A stretch of DNA of 64,000 nucleotides, from assembly GCA_026004615.1 (NCBI GenBank), contig BPJM01000003.1:186001-250000 (forward strand). The letters are read 5' to 3'. Source of the DNA: Planctomycetota bacterium. Lineage in GTDB: Bacteria > Planctomycetota > J058 > J103. The notes beneath the pieces are model-generated. The model did not search any database and was not told the DNA's origin. It worked only from the letters and a program-made list of their open reading frames with translations. Below are positions 48,286 to 58,234 of the stretch, one piece after another. The position numbers were made by a program, and so were the translations under genes. Position 1 is the stretch's first letter. Every line of letters begins with the position of its first letter.

Positions 48286-48472
48286 GCGATATTCCCCTCG
48301 GACGGCATCCTAGAGATGGGGTCCGTCAGCGGCCGCCACCTACCCGCAGCCAACACCGGCAGGGGCGAGGACGGACCTCATCCGGAGGGCGCGGCCCGCG
48401 GCGCGGCGCGCACCGCGCTCGGCTGGGCGCCGCATCCGCGTGGGCCGCCGGGCGCGTTGCCGGAGGACCTCC

Positions 48473-49702
48473 ATGCGCGCAGCGGCATCATCCGGGTGCG
48501 CGCGGGCGGCGCTGCTCGTGCTCGCCCCGCTGCTGCTCGGTGCCGCAGCGGCGAGCGCGCGCGCCGGCGGCCTGGTGGCGGTGCCGGCGGCGGTGCCGGG
48601 CGAGCCGGCGGACGTGCCGGAGCGCTGGGCGCTCTACATGCACCACCTGCACACGGTCACCGGTTCCTGGGCCTACCGGGAGGGCGGAGCGGCTGCGGCC
48701 GCCCGGGGGCTGGACGCCGAGGCGTTTCGCACCCTGCGCCGCGATCTGGCGTCGATCGGGGTGTTCGCGATCGGCACCACCGAGCACAACACCCTGGCGC
48801 ATGCGGCGGTGCTCGAGAGGGCGGGGCTGTTGCCGGCGCCGGCGCCGCCGTACTTGCTGCTCGGCACGGAGTACTCGGGCGCCCGCTCGGGCCACCTCTC
48901 CATCATCCTGCCGCCCGGCGCGCGGAGCCTGCCGCCGCTGGTGCCGCGGGACGCCCACGCGGTGGACGCCGAGGAGCTGCGGCAGGTGATCGCCGAGGCG
49001 CACCGCGCCGGGGCGTTCACCGCCATCAACCACCCGTTTCTCGCGCGCTTCCCCTGGCCGTCGGAGCAGAGCCTGGGCGCGCGGGCGATCGAGGTCGATG
49101 CGCCCACGGCATTCGGTCCGACCCTGGTGCGCAACCTGCGCTGGTGGCACGAGCGGGTGCTCGCCGAGCAGCGTCCGATCGTGCTGATCGCGGGCGCGGA
49201 TTTCCACCTCGTCGGACCGCTGCGCCCGCGCTGGTTCCGCACCTACCTCAACCGGGTGCGGCTCGAAGGCGAGCCCGGCCCGGCGGCGCTGTTCGCCGGC
49301 CTGCTCGCCGGCCGGGTGCAGATCGCGCGGCCGCTTGTGTGGCAGGACCCGGCCGCGGTACCCCTGGTGCTCCTGGGGGTCGACCTCGACGGCGACGGGA
49401 GCTTCGCCGAGGGGCGAGCCGGTGCGCTGCTGCAACTGCCGGCCAGCTGCGGCCGGGTGCGGCTGCAGGTGCGCGTGCTCGGCGGTGCGGGCTGCGTGCT
49501 CGCGCTGTACGACGAGCGTGAGCCCGCGCACCCGGCGGCGGTGGCGCAGCTCGAGCAGTCGGATACCGCGCTGGCGTTCGACAAGCTGCTCGCGGCAGCG
49601 GCCGGGCTCTCGTTCGTGCGGGCGGAGGTGTACGATCCGAGCGGGCGCCGGCTGGTGCTCACCAATCCGATCTACTTCTACCGCGCCGCCGGGCGCGACT
49701 GA
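48473..49702 (+). CDS. Exported PHP-like metallohydrolase with variant metal ligands
   Basis: A 409-residue secreted protein; ATG 48473 has GGAGG six bases upstream, and a signal peptide follows (ALLVLAPLLLGAAAASARAG). The fold resembles the PHP (polymerase and histidinol phosphatase) family of CehA/McbA type: YMHHLHTVT in place of DxHxH, TTEHNT in place of TDHN, FTAINHPF, and AGADFH at the distal site. Two acidic positions differ (M-H for D-H, Glu for Asp), so metal binding may be altered. The C-terminal 120 residues are beta-rich. The much larger subtilase-PHP protein is 3 kb downstream on the same strand. Substrate unknown. Confidence 0.78.
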   Translation: MRAAASSGCARAALLVLAPLLLGAAAASARAGGLVAVPAAVPGEPADVPERWALYMHHLHTVTGSWAYREGGAAAAARGLDAEAFRTLRRDLASIGVFAIGTTEHNTLAHAAVLERAGLLPAPAPPYLLLGTEYSGARSGHLSIILPPGARSLPPLVPRDAHAVDAEELRQVIAEAHRAGAFTAINHPFLARFPWPSEQSLGARAIEVDAPTAFGPTLVRNLRWWHERVLAEQRPIVLIAGADFHLVGPLRPRWFRTYLNRVRLEGEPGPAALFAGLLAGRVQIARPLVWQDPAAVPLVLLGVDLDGDGSFAEGRAGALLQLPASCGRVRLQVRVLGGAGCVLALYDEREPAHPAAVAQLEQSDTALAFDKLLAAAAGLSFVRAEVYDPSGRRLVLTNPIYFYRAAGRD

Positions 49703-49796
49703 GCGCGGCGCAGGGGTGCGGCGGCCCGAGCCGGCGGGGCGAGAGCGGCGGCGGCGCACGCCAGCGGGCGAGCGCCCGGGAGGGGAGGTGACGCTC

Positions 49797-51026
49797 ATGC
49801 GCGAGACCAGGTACTTGCTCATCGGGGGCGGGCTGGCGGCCCACCGGGCGGCGCGCACGCTCCGCCAGCGCGATCCCGAGGGCGCGGTGCTGCTGGTCAG
49901 CGAGGAGCCGTACCCGCCGTACGACCGGCCACCCCTGTCCAAGGAGCTGTTGCGCGGGGAGCGGCAGGCCGAGCAGTGCGTCTACGAGCGTGCCGAGGCG
50001 CTGCGCGACGCCGGGGTGGAGCTGGAGCTGGGGCGGCGGGTGGAGGGGCTGGAGCCCGAGCAGCGTCTCGCCATCCTGCAGGGCGGCGAACGGGTGCGGT
50101 TCGAGCGGGCGCTGCTGGCGACGGGCGGGCGGCCGATCCCGCTGCGGGTGCCGGGCGCCGAGCTCGAAGGGGTGTTCTGCTTGCGGACGCTCGAGGATGC
50201 GCTGGCGATCCGGGCCGCGGCGCAGGCGGCGCGGCGCGCGGTCGTGGTCGGCGCCGGCTTCATCGGCATGGAGCTGGCATCCTCGCTGGTGGCGCTGGGG
50301 CTCGAGGTCACCGTGGTCGAGGCGCGCCCGCGCATCTGGGCGCACTTCTGCCCCGAGCCGGCGAGCGCCTTCTTCCGCCGCCACGCCGAGCAGCGCGGGG
50401 TGCGGTTCGTGCTCGGCACCACGGTCCAGCGGCTGCTCGGCGCCGGCGGGCGGGTGTGCGCGGCCGTGACCGCCCGGGGCGAGCGGCTGGAGTGCGAGAT
50501 GGTGTGCGTGGGGATCGGGATCCGGCCCGCGATCGAGCTGGCCGAGCGCGCGGGGCTGGAGCTCGAGGACGGGGTGGTGGTCGATGCGCGGATGCGGACC
50601 TCGCACCAGGCCGTCTGGGCCGCGGGCGACATCGTGCGCTATCCCGATCCCGTGTTCGGCCGGCGCCGGCGGGTCGAGCATTGGGGGCATGCGGAGCACT
50701 GCGGGCAGATCGCGGCGATCAACATGGCGGGCGGCGCGCAGGACTATGCCCTGCTGAGCTACGTCTGGAGCGACCTGTTCGATCTCCATCTCGAGTTCGC
50801 CGGGGACGAGAGCGAGTACGACCGGACGCTGGTGCGGGGCAGCCTGGAGCAACCTCCCTTCACGCTGTTGTACCTCAAAGGAGATGTCCTGCAGGCCTAC
50901 CTGGCGGTCAACGCCAGCCCCCGCAGCTTCGGCCCGCTGCGCAAGCTGATCCAGCGCCGGGTCTGCCTGGCGGGCCGCGAGCGCCAGCTCGCCGATCCGG
51001 AGTTCGAGCTGCGCGAGCTGTTGTGA
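49797..51026 (+). CDS. FAD-dependent NAD(P)H oxidoreductase (ferredoxin reductase/AIF type)
   Basis: A 409-residue flavoprotein. The N-terminal FAD-binding Rossmann motif is LLIGGGLAAHRAA, followed by YDRPPLSKELL. The NAD(P)-binding motif is VVVGAGFIGMELAS (about 140-155), and the FAD-closing AAGDIVRYPDP is in place, followed by the EHWGHAEHCGQIA stretch typical of putidaredoxin-reductase-like enzymes. It would pass electrons from NAD(P)H to a ferredoxin, Rieske protein or quinone. ATG 49797 has GGAGGT seven bases upstream. It is 94 bases downstream of the PHP gene and 115 bases upstream of the ThDP enzyme, which has its own promoter. Confidence 0.9.
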   Translation: MRETRYLLIGGGLAAHRAARTLRQRDPEGAVLLVSEEPYPPYDRPPLSKELLRGERQAEQCVYERAEALRDAGVELELGRRVEGLEPEQRLAILQGGERVRFERALLATGGRPIPLRVPGAELEGVFCLRTLEDALAIRAAAQAARRAVVVGAGFIGMELASSLVALGLEVTVVEARPRIWAHFCPEPASAFFRRHAEQRGVRFVLGTTVQRLLGAGGRVCAAVTARGERLECEMVCVGIGIRPAIELAERAGLELEDGVVVDARMRTSHQAVWAAGDIVRYPDPVFGRRRRVEHWGHAEHCGQIAAINMAGGAQDYALLSYVWSDLFDLHLEFAGDESEYDRTLVRGSLEQPPFTLLYLKGDVLQAYLAVNASPRSFGPLRKLIQRRVCLAGRERQLADPEFELRELL

Positions 51027-51063
51027 GCGGTCGGCGGCGGGGCTGTCGCGGCCGCCCCGCCGC

Positions 51064-51093
51064 TTGCCGCACGTGGGGTGAGTCCGCTATAGT
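51064..51093 (+). promoter_or_regulatory. Sigma-70 promoter of the ThDP enzyme gene
   Basis: TTGCCG at 51064-51069 and TATAGT at 51088-51093, spacing 18. The leader of about 42 bases contains AGGAGG before ATG 51142. Confidence 0.62.
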
Positions 51094-51141
51094 GCGCCCT
51101 TCCGGCCAGCGGTGGCAGGGCGGCAGGAGGAGTCCCGAGGC

Positions 51142-52800
51142 ATGGCGAGCGGCAACGGCGGCCAGCTCATGGCGCACGCGCTCAAGCGCGAGGGGGTCGA
51201 GGTGCTGTTCACCCTGTGCGGGGGACACATCACCCCGGCCTACCTGGCGGCCGACGAGCTGGGCATCCGCGTCATCGACTTCCGCCACGAACAGGCGGCC
51301 GCCATGGCCGCGGACGCGCTGGCGCGCCTGAGCCGCCGGCCGCAGGTCGCGCTGGTGACCGCCGGGCCGGGGGTGACCAACGCCGTGACCGCGGTGGCGA
51401 ACGCCGCCGCCGCCGACAGCCCGCTGGTGCTGATCGGCGGCAAATCGCCGTTTTACAACCTGGAGCAGGGCTCGCTGCAGGAGATGGAGCAGGTGGACAT
51501 GTTCCGGCCCATCACCTGCTGGGCGCGCTCGTGCTGGGAGACCCGCCGCATCCCCGAGTACGTCGAGATGGCGTTCCGCCACGCCCGCACCCAGCGGGCG
51601 CCGGTGTTCCTCGAGGTCCCCACCGATCTGCTCTACGGCTTCGGCGAGGCGGAGCTGCCGCCGCCGCTCAGCCCGGCCCACTGGGGCGGCCGGCCGCCGG
51701 CCGATCCGGCGCTGGTGGAGCAAGCGGCCCGGCTGCTGGCGCAGAGCGAGCGCGCGGTGCTGCTCGCCGGCTCCACGGTCTGGTGGGACGACGCGGCGGC
51801 GGCGCTGCAGGCGCTGGCCGAGCAGGCGCACCTGCCCGTGTACACCAATGGCATGGGCCGTGGGTGCATGCCGCCCGAGCACCCGCTGTTCTTCCAGCTC
51901 ACGCGGGGGCAGGCGCTCGGCGAGGCGGACGCGGTGGTGCTCATCGGGGTGCCGCTCGATTTCCGGATGGGGTACGGCCGCAATCTCGGCGAGCACACCC
52001 GGCTGATCCGCATCGAGAACCGGGCCGAACGGCTGGCGCACGTGCGCGCGCCGGCGGTCGGACTGTGCGGGGATGCGCGGGCGGTGCTGGAGCAGCTGTG
52101 CGTTGCGCTCGCCGCCGAGGGCGGCGGTGGCGCCGCCGCGCGTAGCGCGCGCCAGGGCTGGGTGCAGGCGCTGCGTGCCGCCGAGGAGCACAAGCGCGCC
52201 GCCCAGCGCGAGCAGGGCCGGTCCGACCAGGTACCGATCAGCCACCAGCGGCTGGCGCAGGAGATCGCGGATCTGGTCGATGCGGACACGGTGGTGGTGG
52301 GCGACGGCGGCGATATCGTCGGCTGCGCCGCCAAGTACATCCCGGTGCCCGCCCCCGGGCACTGGCTCGATCCCGGACCGTTCGGCTGCCTGGGGGTGGG
52401 ACCGCCGTTCGCGCTCGCGGCCAAGCTGTTCTGGCCGCACAAGAAGGTGATCCTGCTGTCGGGCGACGGGGCGCTGGGGCTCAACGGGTTCGACCTGGAC
52501 ACCGCGATCCGCCACCGGCTGCCCTTCGTCACCGTGGTCGGCAACGACGGTGGCTGGGGTCAGATCCGCAATCCGCAGACCCAGATGTTCGGCGAGCAGC
52601 GCACCCTGGCGTGCGAGCTGGAGTTCAGCCGCTACGACCGCTTCATCGAGGCATTCGGCGGGCGGGGCGAGCGGGTCGAGCGGCCCGAGCAGATCCGGCC
52701 CGCGCTCGAGCGGGCGCTGGCGGCGGAGACCTGCGCGCTGGTGGACGTGGTGATCTCCAAGCATACCATGGCGGGTTCCAACTACATGCGCGGGCTGTAG
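51142..52800 (+). CDS. Thiamine diphosphate-dependent lyase (acetolactate synthase/2-hydroxyacyl-CoA lyase family)
   Basis: A 552-residue ThDP enzyme with three domains. The cofactor-activating Glu is in [16 protein letters not shown], and the glycine-rich [17 protein letters not shown] completes the Pyr domain. The ThDP/Mg motif is [17 protein letters not shown]...[11 protein letters not shown], where GDG and the second-metal ligand Asn-Asp are present. The wording around NDGGWGQI is closer to ILVBL/HACL2-like and oxalyl-CoA-decarboxylase-type members than to biosynthetic IlvB, and no small subunit is nearby. It probably acts on 2-keto acids or 2-hydroxyacyl-CoA. ATG 51142 fits the ribosome site; the earlier start-like codon at 51112 lies within the leader. 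Confidence 0.88.
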
Positions 52801-52895
52801 GGGCGCGGCGCAGCACCAGCCGTTTCGCCCCCCGGGGCCAGCCAGCCGCCGGGCAGGGGCAGCGCGCGCGGGAACGGAGCAGGGGGAACGCTGCG

Positions 52896-55800
52896 GTGAG
52901 TCAGGGGCGAGCGTTGCGGGCCGGGGGGCGGGCAGCTGCCTGGCGCACGACGGGCTCCGGGTTGCGGATCGCAGTGGCCCTGGGCGTGCTCGCCGCCGCT
53001 GCGCCCGCACGCGCCGCGCCGCCGGGCGGCGAGCAGCTGGTGCTGCCCGCGCGCACCGGCGGCGCGCTCGCGCCCCCGGTGCGCCTGGCGGCCGGCGGGC
53101 GGAGCGATGCGTGCGGCTGTTGCACGGGCACCCCGCTCACCCCCTACGGCCGGTTTCTGCATGCGATCCGGCAGTGCGAGCGCGTGCGCCACCAGGTGGT
53201 GCGTGTCGAGCGTGCGGGCGCTCCCGCGCACGAGGCGGTGCGGGGCCAGGCGCTGCTGCGGCTCGCCCCGGGGGTGGAGCCGGCGGCGTTCGCGCGCGCC
53301 AGGGGGCTGGAGCTGGTGCGCGCGGTGGCGGCGCTGCGCGCCTGTGTCGTCGCGCGCCCGGGGGCCGATCCGGCCGCCCTCGCCGGCGAGCTCGCGGCTG
53401 CTCCCGAGGTCGAGCACGCCAGCCCCAACTGGGTGGCGCGAACCCTCGCCACCGTGCCCAACGACGACATGTACCACGCCCAGCGGGCGCGGCGGGCGCT
53501 GGGGCTGGAGGACGCCTGGGACATCACGCGCGGGGCCGGGGTGCAGCTCGCGGTGCTCGATACCGGGATCGACGCCGGCCATGCCGATCTGCAGGGAGCG
53601 CTGGCGGCAGGAGGCTGGCACGATGTCCTGGCGGGCTCGCCCCAGCCCTACGACGACAACGGACACGGCACCGCGCTCGCCGGCATCATCGCCGCGCGCT
53701 TCCAGAACCTCTTCGGCACCGCGGGGGTGGCCCCGGAGGCGAGTCTGCTCGCCATCAAGGTGGCGGACGCGGCGGGCGCGGCCAGCTTCGGCGACCTGAT
53801 CGCGGGGCTGGACGAGGCGACGCGCCGTGGGGTGCCGATCATCGTCATCGCGCTGGGGGCGCCGCTGGGCGATCCGCTGCTCGAGGCGGCACTCAAGCGC
53901 GCACTCGATGCCGGCGCGCTGGTGCTGGCCGCGGCGGGCAACGAGAACCTGGAGGTGCCGCTGTATCCGGCCGCCTACCCGGGCGTGCTGGCGGTCGGCG
54001 GCAGCGCCGGCAGCGGTGCCGCCGAGCCGGCGTTCGTCACCTGCCTGGGGCCGGCGGTGGCGCTGCTCGCCCCAGCCGAGGACGTGCTGACGACGCTGCC
54101 CGGCAACGTCTGGGGCTTCGCCGGCGGCAGCAGCGCCGCGGTCGCGCACGCCGCCGGCATCGCGGCGCTGGCGCTGGCGCAGAGCCCCGGGCTCGACCGC
54201 GCTCGCCTGAGCCAGGTGCTGCGTTACGGCAGCGAGCCCGTGCCGGCGCTGGATGGCCTGGAGGAGGTCTATCCAGCACGCCGCGTGCACGCGCTGCGCG
54301 CGCTGGAGCGGGCGCAGCCCGGTCACATCGACGTCGCGGTGGATGGGCTCTGGGTCGCGCCGGCTCGTCCCGCCCCGGGCGGGGCGGCGAGGGTGCGCGC
54401 CCGGGTGCGCAACGAGGGCAACGCTGCGCTGGGCACGGTCACCCTGCGCGCGCGCTACCTCGACGGCGGCCGGAGCGTCGAGATCGGGGTGGTGCAGCTC
54501 GCGGGGCTGCAGATCGGCGAGCAGCGCGAGGTCAGCTTCTCCTGGCGCCAGACCCCGCCCGCGGGCAGCTATCCGGTCGAGGTCGCCGCCGATCCGGTGC
54601 CGGGCGAGACCGAGCTCGGCGACAACGTCCGGCAGCGAGCGGTGACGATCGCAGCGGGGGCATTGCCGGACGTGCGGCTGGCGTTCCTGCAGGTACGGCC
54701 GGATCTCGACCGCGGCCGGGTGGAGGTCGAGGCGTGGGTGCGCAACCTCGGCCCCGCTGCGCTGGCCGACGTGGACGTGAGCTTTGTCGCCAACGGGCAG
54801 CCCTGGACGGTGATCCGCATCCCGCAGCTGGAGGTGGGGGGCGAGGCGCGGCTGCTGGCGCTCTGGCCGCTGCCGCAGGTGGTCCCGGAACTGGTGGCAT
54901 TCGAGGCGCGCGTGGCGCGCCAGCCCGGCGAGCTGTCGGTGTTCGACAACGCGGGCGAGGCGCGGGCGCGGCTCGGCACCCCGGCCACGCGCCCGCTCCA
55001 GGCGCTCTACCAGCAGTCCAACGGCGTCGATCTGATCCTGGATGCGCCATATCGGCTGGGGCCGCAGCGCCCCTATCTGCCGGTGCTGGTGTTCTGCCCC
55101 AGCAAGGCCGATCGCTCCACCAGCACCTATGTGACCATCGAGCGGGCGCGGCTGTGGTACCGCGATGCCCCGAGCCCCAGCGGCGGCTCCCCCGGAACGC
55201 TGCTCTACGAGGACACGCACGGGGCGCCGCCCGCGCATGCCGCCCCCGGCCTGGAGCTGCTGGATGAGGATGGCGCACTGCTGGTGCGCGGCGGTGCGCC
55301 GAGCCTCGATCTGTTCAACGACGAGGAGCTGCGGCTGAATGGGCGCTACAACCTGTTGCGGCTGCCGCGCGCGGCGCTGGGGGTGGCGGGCCCGCCGCCC
55401 AGCGCGCTCACGCGCTATCTGGAGGGGCGGCTGGAGTGGGCATTTCACCGCCGGCTGCTGTGGGTGTTCCGCATCACCCGCCACGGCAGCCACCGCAAGG
55501 TGCTCTCGGTGGTGTTCGGCCCCACGGACCTGCCGCGGCTGCCGGGCGAGGGCCAGTACTACGACGCGCACCTGCACACGATCGCCGAGTGGCACCACAA
55601 CAGCCCCTTGCAGCTGACCGCACCGCGCAAGAACTATGGCGGTCCGCTGCCGATGCTCAACGAGGCGGCCGCTGCCATCGGCTTCGTGCCGGACCCGAGC
55701 CAGGTCAAGGACCGGGTGGCGATCACCGACCACAACACCTTCTACAACACCTCGGTCGGCGACCCCAACCACCCCGACGTGCGCCCGCCCTTCGGGCCCA

Positions 55801-57731
55801 CCTCGCCCCTGCGCTCGGCGGCACCGGGCGGCGGGGTGTTCAGCGAGTTCGAGCGCTACCGGCAGATCTACGGGCTGAGCGCCGGCGAGGAGGTCGCGTT
55901 CAAGCAGCTCCAGCACAACGGCTTCGCGGGCTTCGGCGTCGACCTGCCGCTGGGCTCGCACCTGCTGCTGTACCGGGCCCAGCATATCGAGGGGCCGTGG
56001 CACGGCGGGGGGTTCTTCCCCGATCCGCAGGCGCCGCCGATCGACGTCGAGCTGGACACGCTGCTGCGCGATCTGGCGCAGACCCAACCGGCGGCGAACG
56101 CGCACGCCTTCGCCTTCGCCGCCCATCCCGACTCGGGGATGCTCGGCTGGGCGGACGACAAGTGGCGGCTGGCGCTCGGGCTCGATCCGGCGCTGCGCAC
56201 CATGGCGCACGTGCATCCGAACCCGCCCGGCTTCGTGTTCAAGGGATTGCAGGTCTGGAACGGCCGCGGGCACCGGGCGCTCGCCCCCAGTGGGATCGAT
56301 TTCGACGACCTCAATCCGTTCGCCGACCCCGTCTGGCAGCACGGCAACCAGGACTGGGATCGCCCGGTGGCGACCAACCTGGTCGCCTGGCACCGCGCGA
56401 TCGCGGCCAATCTCCGCTACAGCTTCGTGCACCTGCCCGAGCTGGTGTTCGTGCGCAAGGTGCTGGGGGTCGCCGGCTCCGATGCCCACGGCGACTTCAA
56501 CTACTCGGTCAGCCGGCTGGCGACGCCCATCCCGTTCAACTTCACCTTCAGCGTCGATTCGAGCTGGTTCGGCTGCGCGCGCACCTATGTCTTCACCCAG
56601 GGCATCGCGCTCGCGGATGCCGGCGAGCGGCTGGTGCGCGCCCTGGCGGGCGGGCGCTCGGTGCTGACCGACGGGCCGCTGCTCGCCTTCACCATCGATG
56701 CGGAGGGCCGTTTCGACAGCAGCGATCTGCGCTGGCACGACCAGCTCGATCAGGCGGCGGACGACGATGGCCTCATGGGTGGGCACGGCGCGTTCGACGG
56801 TGGCGGTACGGTGCTGGTGGTGCGCGACAACCCGCACGTGCACCTGCGCTACCGCTACGAGGAGCTGCCGGAGGCAGGTTCCAACGGCGGCCGCATCGAG
56901 GCGATCCACATCTACAAGGACGAGCCGCACGCGCCCAACCCCACGCGCTCGCGCGGGCGCTTCGAGCAGCCGTTGAGCGTGGGCAAGCTCGCGCCTGCGG
57001 GTCCGGGCCAGTGGCTGAGCGAGCGGCTGGATCCGGCCGAGGAAGGGCTGGTGCGCGAGCCGAGCGCGTTCTCGCTCGGAGCGTTCACCGGGGGCGATCC
57101 CGACACGGTCGTGCTCGGGATCGAGGAGCGGCGCTGCTACACCAACCCCATCTGGGCGCTGCCGGTGGCGGTGAGCGTGCAGGCCAGCCCCGCGCAGAGC
57201 GAGCTGCCGCCCGGCGCGCTGCGGATCGTGCTGGAGTTCCCGGTGAGCATGGATCCGACGGGAGGGGTGGTGGAGGTCAAGGAGCTGGATGCGAACGGGC
57301 AATCGAGCGGCCGCGCGGATCCGCCGCTCGCCACCCTGCAAGCCACCTGGAGCAGCGCGGGCGGGGTGCGGGATGCACGGCTGGAGCTCACCAACCCGCA
57401 GTCGATCCCGACCACGGGCCCCGAGTATCCCGCGCCCGGGCGCAAGAGCTTCGTCGTCTACTTCCGCGAGCCGCCGCGCGACGCGTTCGGCAACGCGCTC
57501 AATCCGCTGGCGTTCACCTTCGAGGTGGCGTGGGGCGGGCCCGGTGGCAGCACCGCCTCGCCGCAGAGCGGGCGCCGCGGCGGGGGCTCCGGGGGCGGCT
57601 GTGCGCTCGGCCGCGACGCCGGCGCCAGCGCCCGCGGCACGGCGCTCAAGACCGCCCAGGCCGCCTGGTGGCCGCTCGTGCTCGCGCTGCTGGCGCTCGT
57701 GAGCCTGCGCCGGCGCCGGGGGCGCGCCTGA
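52896..57731 (+). CDS. Secreted subtilisin-PHP fusion protein with C-terminal sorting-type tail
   Basis: A 1611-residue protein from GTG 52896. A signal peptide (RIAVALGVLAAAAPARA) and a propeptide-like region precede an S8 subtilase with intact residues: Asp222 (AVLDTGIDAGH), His257 (DNGHGTALAG), Asn349 (AAAGNEN) and Ser413 (GGSSAAVAHAAG). Two CARDB-like beta domains (about 475-700) follow, then a PHP metal-phosphoesterase-like domain with all motifs intact: DAHLH (890-894), TDHN (944-947), His1077 and GSDAH (1195-1198). The C-terminus has GGGSGGGCALG (Cys1569), a hydrophobic helix and RRRRGR, a MYXO/JDVT-CTERM-like sorting signal. Peptidase cleavage plus phospho- or nucleotide-processing is inferred. 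Confidence 0.85.
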   Translation: MSQGRALRAGGRAAAWRTTGSGLRIAVALGVLAAAAPARAAPPGGEQLVLPARTGGALAPPVRLAAGGRSDACGCCTGTPLTPYGRFLHAIRQCERVRHQVVRVERAGAPAHEAVRGQALLRLAPGVEPAAFARARGLELVRAVAALRACVVARPGADPAALAGELAAAPEVEHASPNWVARTLATVPNDDMYHAQRARRALGLEDAWDITRGAGVQLAVLDTGIDAGHADLQGALAAGGWHDVLAGSPQPYDDNGHGTALAGIIAARFQNLFGTAGVAPEASLLAIKVADAAGAASFGDLIAGLDEATRRGVPIIVIALGAPLGDPLLEAALKRALDAGALVLAAAGNENLEVPLYPAAYPGVLAVGGSAGSGAAEPAFVTCLGPAVALLAPAEDVLTTLPGNVWGFAGGSSAAVAHAAGIAALALAQSPGLDRARLSQVLRYGSEPVPALDGLEEVYPARRVHALRALERAQPGHIDVAVDGLWVAPARPAPGGAARVRARVRNEGNAALGTVTLRARYLDGGRSVEIGVVQLAGLQIGEQREVSFSWRQTPPAGSYPVEVAADPVPGETELGDNVRQRAVTIAAGALPDVRLAFLQVRPDLDRGRVEVEAWVRNLGPAALADVDVSFVANGQPWTVIRIPQLEVGGEARLLALWPLPQVVPELVAFEARVARQPGELSVFDNAGEARARLGTPATRPLQALYQQSNGVDLILDAPYRLGPQRPYLPVLVFCPSKADRSTSTYVTIERARLWYRDAPSPSGGSPGTLLYEDTHGAPPAHAAPGLELLDEDGALLVRGGAPSLDLFNDEELRLNGRYNLLRLPRAALGVAGPPPSALTRYLEGRLEWAFHRRLLWVFRITRHGSHRKVLSVVFGPTDLPRLPGEGQYYDAHLHTIAEWHHNSPLQLTAPRKNYGGPLPMLNEAAAAIGFVPDPSQVKDRVAITDHNTFYNTSVGDPNHPDVRPPFGPTSPLRSAAPGGGVFSEFERYRQIYGLSAGEEVAFKQLQHNGFAGFGVDLPLGSHLLLYRAQHIEGPWHGGGFFPDPQAPPIDVELDTLLRDLAQTQPAANAHAFAFAAHPDSGMLGWADDKWRLALGLDPALRTMAHVHPNPPGFVFKGLQVWNGRGHRALAPSGIDFDDLNPFADPVWQHGNQDWDRPVATNLVAWHRAIAANLRYSFVHLPELVFVRKVLGVAGSDAHGDFNYSVSRLATPIPFNFTFSVDSSWFGCARTYVFTQGIALADAGERLVRALAGGRSVLTDGPLLAFTIDAEGRFDSSDLRWHDQLDQAADDDGLMGGHGAFDGGGTVLVVRDNPHVHLRYRYEELPEAGSNGGRIEAIHIYKDEPHAPNPTRSRGRFEQPLSVGKLAPAGPGQWLSERLDPAEEGLVREPSAFSLGAFTGGDPDTVVLGIEERRCYTNPIWALPVAVSVQASPAQSELPPGALRIVLEFPVSMDPTGGVVEVKELDANGQSSGRADPPLATLQATWSSAGGVRDARLELTNPQSIPTTGPEYPAPGRKSFVVYFREPPRDAFGNALNPLAFTFEVAWGGPGGSTASPQSGRRGGGSGGGCALGRDAGASARGTALKTAQAAWWPLVLALLALVSLRRRRGRA

Positions 57732-58234
57732 AGCGCGGCGCGCCGGGCCGTATCCACACGCCGCGGCCAGGAGCGAGGGGCTGCACCCGATCCGCCCTGC
57801 TCGTGCGGGCCGGCTCGCCGCTGTAGCCTCGCGCCGGCGGCCGACGAGCGGCGGTGCCATCCGCCGCGCGCCGCGGTGGAGGAACGGCGAGGAGCACCGC
57901 GCGATGACGCGGCGCGGCAATCCCGAAACCCATTAAGTACGACGCATTTCCTTGTGTGCTGGGGGATTTCGCCGCCGCCGGGATTGACACGGATGACAGA
58001 ACGGATACAATGCCTGCGTGCCGGCGGTGGCTGTCGGGGTGGGGAGAGAGTGGCGACCGGCGCCGGGAGCGGCGGCGCGGTCGCAGCCCGCCAGCCGGCT
58101 CAGGCCAGGGTGGCCCGCCGGCCAGCCGATCGATCGACGATCCGCCAGCGGGAGGGTGTGAGGATCAGCCAGCTTCGCAGCAGCCACGACCGGACGCGGA
58201 TCGGCGCACGGTGCCCGGAGGGGAGAGGGAGCCT
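57732..58234. other. 503-base intergenic region with promoter and long leader
   Basis: No protein gene is supported here. The first part (57740-57930) shows nothing clear. At about 57930-57965 the sequence becomes unusually AT-rich for this genome (ATTAAGTACGACGCATTTCC), just upstream of a near-consensus promoter at 57984-58011. The remaining 217 bases would be the untranslated leader of the zinc-ribbon gene, GC-rich with CCGGCGCCGG and CGATCGATCG palindromes, and could hold a regulatory RNA structure or a separate small RNA. Confidence 0.55.
57984..58011 (+). promoter_or_regulatory. Near-consensus sigma-70 promoter upstream of the zinc-ribbon gene
   Basis: Perfect TTGACA (57984-57989) and TACAAT (58006-58011) with 16-base spacing; the strongest promoter sequence in the window. 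Transcription from about 58018 leaves a 217-base leader before ATG 58235. Confidence 0.75.

Follow-up and report, generated by a model that had tools for sequence, protein, structure and literature searches.

An exported Planctomycetota protein predicted to join an S8 subtilase and a divergent PHP-type metallohydrolase in one chain

The gene at 52896-57731 on the + strand of the window, the whole 64,000-nucleotide stretch of DNA that was analysed, encodes a 1611 aa protein in which an S8 subtilase domain and a PHP-type domain, each with a catalytic set that reads as complete, are carried by a single exported chain. The fused layout is a genuine, previously undescribed protein family in which two known enzyme families meet in a new architecture; both domains occur in one frame in at least 33 further proteins, and no description of an S8-PHP chain was found in the literature searched, in agreement with an earlier note, made from the sequence, which knew of no characterised enzyme of this type. 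The protein is interpreted here as a probably surface-anchored chain of two hydrolases that would act on one composite extracellular substrate, a reading given a probability of roughly 0.55. The layout is conserved and multi-copy in poorly cultured Planctomycetota, and is only half recognised by curated family libraries; it also brings to light a divergent branch of the PHP domains with a full ligand set.

Gene and domain organization

The reading frame opens with a GTG codon at 52896, preceded about 9 nt upstream by the purine-rich AGGGGGA, and contains no internal stop; third-position GC is 0.91-0.95 in each 600-base block, the S8/PHP join included. The chain begins with a putative signal peptide extending to approximately residue 40. 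The features of the gene are collected in Table 1. A long antisense frame at 52782-57920 (-) was set aside, being taken for a mere shadow cast by the high GC content; where it matches between loci, the matches mirror those of the sense gene; a search of the plasmid collection gave no match.

Table 1. Predicted features of the 1611 aa protein and their positions in the window
Feature	Position	Strand	Basis
Whole gene, 1611 aa	52896..57731	+	single open frame, GTG start, GC3 0.92 throughout
Putative N-terminal signal peptide, probably cleaved behind residue 40 (APARA/A)	52896..53015	+	sequence reading
Propeptide-like region, residues 108-178	53217..53429	+	Fervidolysin_NPro-like 0.0019, ORF_2_N 6.4e-6, both below curated cut-offs
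S8 subtilase domain, residues 213-442	53532..54221	+	PF00082 8.5e-34; thermitase 5.1e-39; D/H/S kept 34/34
S8 D222	53559-53561	+	
S8 H257	53664-53666	+	
S8 oxyanion N349	53940-53942	+	
S8 S413	54132-54134	+	
First CARDB linker, residues 487-567	54354..54596	+	PF07705 7.6e-14, two stretches
Second CARDB-like linker, residues ~592-690, approximate boundaries	54669..54965	+	second PF07705 stretch; boundaries from sequence
Beta-sandwich domain before PHP core, residues 706-880	55011..55535	+	AlphaFold model, all-beta, high pLDDT
PHP-like metallohydrolase core, residues 885-1300	55548..56795	+	CehA/McbA profile match, AlphaFold model, PsfC as nearest PDB
C-terminal Ig-like beta domain, residues ~1425-1548	57168..57539	+	sequence reading; without Pfam match
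C-terminal sorting-type tail: Gly/Ser-rich GGGSGGGC, transmembrane stretch, RRRRGR	57579..57728	+	13 aligned family tails

The S8 half scores 117.6 bits against PF00082, for which the gathering cut-off is 21.8, and thermitase is its nearest solved chain in a search of PDB sequences; the Asp/His/Ser triad and the oxyanion Asn are all present. Models for the preceding propeptide-like region fall just under their cut-offs (PF22148, 19.0 vs 21 bits; PF18492, 26.8 vs 29.2 bits). The protein resembles the S8 subtilases (thermitase, subtilisin and mycosin-like proteins; PF00082) in the D/H/N/S order, in having a propeptide-like region ahead of the catalytic domain and in its probable secretion; it differs in that CARDB spacers and another enzyme-type domain follow in the same chain. 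The two PF07705 stretches bear out the CARDB-like linkers that the earlier note had placed between the modules.

The beta-sandwich that precedes the PHP core is also found in secreted relatives that contain only the PHP part, as matches to the 'link' HMM. Longer versions of the fused chain exist as well: three proteins (L053, L055, L056) are approximately 2000 aa in length; in these, about 400 additional residues precede the PHP core and the beta-sandwich region is matched twice, perhaps owing to a duplication, while a 3120 aa version (L068:3332-12691) has Ig-like, TSP3 and TIG domains ahead of S8 and PHP.

The PHP-like domain

The PHP core carries the ligand-type residues D890, H892, H894, D945, H946, E999, H1022, H1077, D1196 and H1198, which are invariant in 51 aligned sequences, together with E898; the motif set HxH, DH, E/H, HP, DxH is complete in the 1611 aa protein. 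The four S8 residues and the PHP landmarks DAHLH 890, TDHN 944, H1077 and GSDAH 1194 were found exactly where the earlier note had read them, its list of PHP ligands having missed the invariant E999 and H1022.

No Pfam model matches the core, other family members giving chance-level matches only, and a profile built from the PHP alignment retrieved no PDB sequence at E<=10. The NCBIfam model for CehA/McbA (NF038032) gives the core 22 bits against a curated cut-off of 80; the same model is matched at E<=1 by 46 of 54 family members, with a best value of 1.7e-13. Profile-profile alignment by hhalign to the CehA/McbA proteins of the same genome group reaches 98.3% (E 1.2e-14) and lines up HxH, DH, E, HP and DxH in identical order, with H1022 four columns out of register; the CehA/McbA set itself matches solved PHP chains (9etk, 3e0f, 3e38) at 2e-7 to 1e-5. 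Compared to CehA/McbA, the core is longer, rich in insertions and fused to S8, and displays DxHxHTxxEW and GSDAHGDF signatures. Due to the missing Pfam match and the score below the CehA/McbA cut-off, the second domain is considered to be a divergent PHP-type metallohydrolase, apparently a relative of CehA/McbA rather than a member.

The structure prediction that the earlier note had proposed gives confident models with the PHP ligands at or beside strands (residues 700-1425, pLDDT 90.8, pTM 0.93; residues 881-1305, pLDDT 86, pTM 0.86); D890/H892/H894, H1077 and D1196/H1198 directly follow strands, and E999 and H1022 lie on them. This placement matches expectation for a PHP barrel, and we infer from the models that the ligands are co-located in one metal site. 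A Foldseek search with the longer model (700-1425) yielded nothing beyond noise from beta-sandwich folds; with the PHP-only model a single PDB neighbour is credible, namely PsfC (7rty; prob 0.89, E 0.058, TM 0.56 on target), which belongs to the fosfomycin pathway in Pseudomonas. PsfC, which we take to be a PHP superfamily member, is the nearest solved fold, and the CehA/McbA set matches it weakly by sequence profile; it differs from the core in being a 245 aa stand-alone di-iron enzyme.

Distribution, conservation and evolution

The domain-architecture search, likewise proposed in the earlier note, took the form of a scan of named genomes that kept 79 loci, from which the 33 further S8-PHP frames come. 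They belong to 22 isolates (counted by genome name) and are mostly from Planctomycetota; outside that phylum are two proteins of Myxococcota (L067, L071) and a 1329 aa protein (L069) of Marinobacterium rhizophilum DSM 18822, a cultured organism in which the family becomes testable. When the whole chain was searched against 98 related genomes, each hit genome tended to yield several homologues covering the full length, with identities of 38-47%. Among 14 aligned homologues from other genomes (two of which end at contig ends) and the 1611 aa protein, no sequence departs from the S8 triad, the oxyanion Asn or the PHP ligands (15/15); in the wider family, all 34 S8 domains retain Asp/His/Ser and all 53 PHP domains retain the tabulated ligands, the 1611 aa protein being counted in both. 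Overall identity in the family is 28-50%, and the strict conservation of both catalytic sets at this level argues that both sites are under selection.

Within the phylum, the PHP part with its beta-sandwich is found at E<=1e-20 in 24 of 392 sampled genomes; ten of the 11 other members of the class are among these carriers, and the sole genome sampled from the same family lacks the pair at that threshold. The oxyanion Asn is replaced by Ser, Thr or Ile in seven of eight distant S8-PHP proteins (L066-L069, L073, L076, L077), which retain Asp/His/Ser; with this replacement, these seven proteases may have little or no activity.

A tree of the PHP domains shows a main Planctomycetota clade made up wholly of fused proteins, except for fragments at contig ends or frame breaks; elsewhere in the tree, fused and PHP-only proteins lie side by side. 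One protein classed as PHP-only (L075) is truncated where its contig stops, and could belong to the fused type. A single origin is compatible with the S8 domains of all the fused proteins (p-AU 0.599), a result that is not proof of it. PHP-only relatives that read as having their own signal peptide occur in Riflebacteria, Eisenbacteria, Pararhodobacter and Marimonas; no S8 frame was present in the fetched flanks of these loci, which indicates that the PHP part can do without S8 and that coupling of the two is not essential. Two PHP-only relatives adjoin acyl-hydrolase-type genes, one GDSL-like below the cut-off and one patatin; this association is anecdotal.

C-terminal tail and surface anchoring

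Tails from 13 family members align: a segment rich in Gly and Ser leads to a Cys present in every one, followed by a hydrophobic segment and then by Arg residues. This arrangement is reminiscent of the MYXO-CTERM system of the myxosortase MrtX, described as a tripartite build (PMC11980579), with which the tail shares the Cys motif, the transmembrane helix and the Arg cluster. The genome also encodes a CPBP protease related to MrtX (G000:C3:277202-277579). The system departs from MYXO-CTERM in that no NCBIfam CTERM model matches the tail at E<=5 and the CPBP protease, at 72.6 bits, is under the MrtX cut-off of 180. Further frames in this genome, several of them on contig G000:C1, are picked up by the tail profile, with a best value of 4e-6. 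Based on the tail the chain is probably anchored at the cell surface; the MrtX-like CPBP protease and the further frames with Cys tails suggest an unnamed planctomycete counterpart of MYXO-CTERM sorting.

Proposed function

Following Sec export the S8 part would remove its own propeptide as usual, and the tail would hold the chain at the surface; as in MYXO-CTERM, the tail Cys may be lipidated and the membrane helix removed by the CPBP protease. The PHP part is hypothesized to bind two or three metals and to hydrolyse an ester or phosphoester bond. The two sites, held apart by the spacers, would then both attack a single composite extracellular polymer or decorated protein. This reading is weakened by the lack of S8 in several secreted relatives, by the oxyanion replacement in distant members and by the scores of the PHP domain, which stay under all curated family cut-offs. 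If the two sites do work together, the chain would provide a route for degrading composite extracellular material; to our knowledge, degradation of such material by two sites joined in this manner is not described for subtilases.

The earlier note had taken the second enzyme for a phosphoesterase, an assignment that is not established: the closest branch includes carbamate esterases, and PsfC is reported to be a di-iron enzyme. The PHP part may instead be a carboxyl- or carbamate-type ester hydrolase, with both domains active; this idea is tentative, at somewhat below even odds, and is compatible with the two-hydrolase reading as it concerns chemistry only. It is favoured by CehA/McbA being the closest recognisable family, as CehA and McbA hydrolyse carbamate esters and His residues of their predicted PHP-like domain are essential (PMC8292978), and anecdotally by the acyl-hydrolase-type neighbours noted above; however, characterised PHP enzymes are mostly phosphoesterases, such as the secreted PHP phosphodiesterase Sb-PDE (PMC5460133), and the ligand set as read from sequence does not discriminate carbamate or carboxyl ester from phosphoester chemistry.

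An unlikely alternative is that the S8 part serves the PHP part, processing or releasing the metallohydrolase after export as a maturation in cis, with little substrate of its own. Self-processing is common among subtilases, and the propeptide-like region and long linkers would fit a maturing protease; the secreted PHP-only relatives that have no S8 frame in their fetched flanks speak against it. The earlier note's suggestion of a protease by which the second enzyme is exposed or set free is for this reason weakened as an obligatory mechanism.

A stronger form of the two-hydrolase reading would have the subtilase functionally coupled to a new iron- or mixed-metal PHP-type enzyme throughout a surface-anchored family, the product of one site being the substrate of the other. 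This is decidedly improbable; if true, the pair would open a polymer class that neither enzyme attacks alone.

It is very doubtful that either half has become a pseudo-enzyme retained for binding: the loss of the oxyanion Asn in 7 of 34 S8-PHP proteins would suit such a role, but the 1611 aa protein and its clade have lost neither the triad nor the Asn nor any tabulated PHP ligand. A di-iron redox function of the PHP part in place of hydrolysis is highly unlikely; the idea draws on PsfC, reported to be a dinuclear non-heme iron enzyme (PMC12871164), as the only credible structural neighbour, yet the Foldseek E value is only 0.058, the fold is a large one of which PsfC is a single example, the profile is closer to the CehA/McbA hydrolases, and an exported di-iron enzyme would be unusual. 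An assembly or frame artefact joining two genes, which the 77.7% completeness of the source MAG might invite, is ruled out by the same join in proteins of 22 other isolates and by even GC3 across it. Such an artefact was one of two findings that the earlier note said would refute it; the other, PHP-like motifs that do not meet in a predicted metal site, is countered by the position of the ligands at or beside strands of a confident model.

Gene neighbourhood

No conserved neighbour genes were seen around the homologues beyond close relatives, and the S8/PHP pair therefore looks self-contained; the neighbourhood gives no hint of the substrate. In this genome, four + strand genes at 48440-57731 run together. 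Three genes upstream of the fusion, at 48440-49702 (+), is a stand-alone CehA/McbA-like PHP protein that scores 72.9 bits against the cut-off of 80 and whose ligand positions, judged by alignment, seem intact. A ferredoxin-reductase-type FAD protein (49788-51026, +) and an acetolactate-synthase-like ThDP enzyme (51112-52800, +) separate it from the fusion, a gene order not seen around the homologues. A further frame of 1687 aa on another contig of the genome (L155:534-5597; G000:C10) has a CehA/McbA-type domain behind long beta-rich regions.
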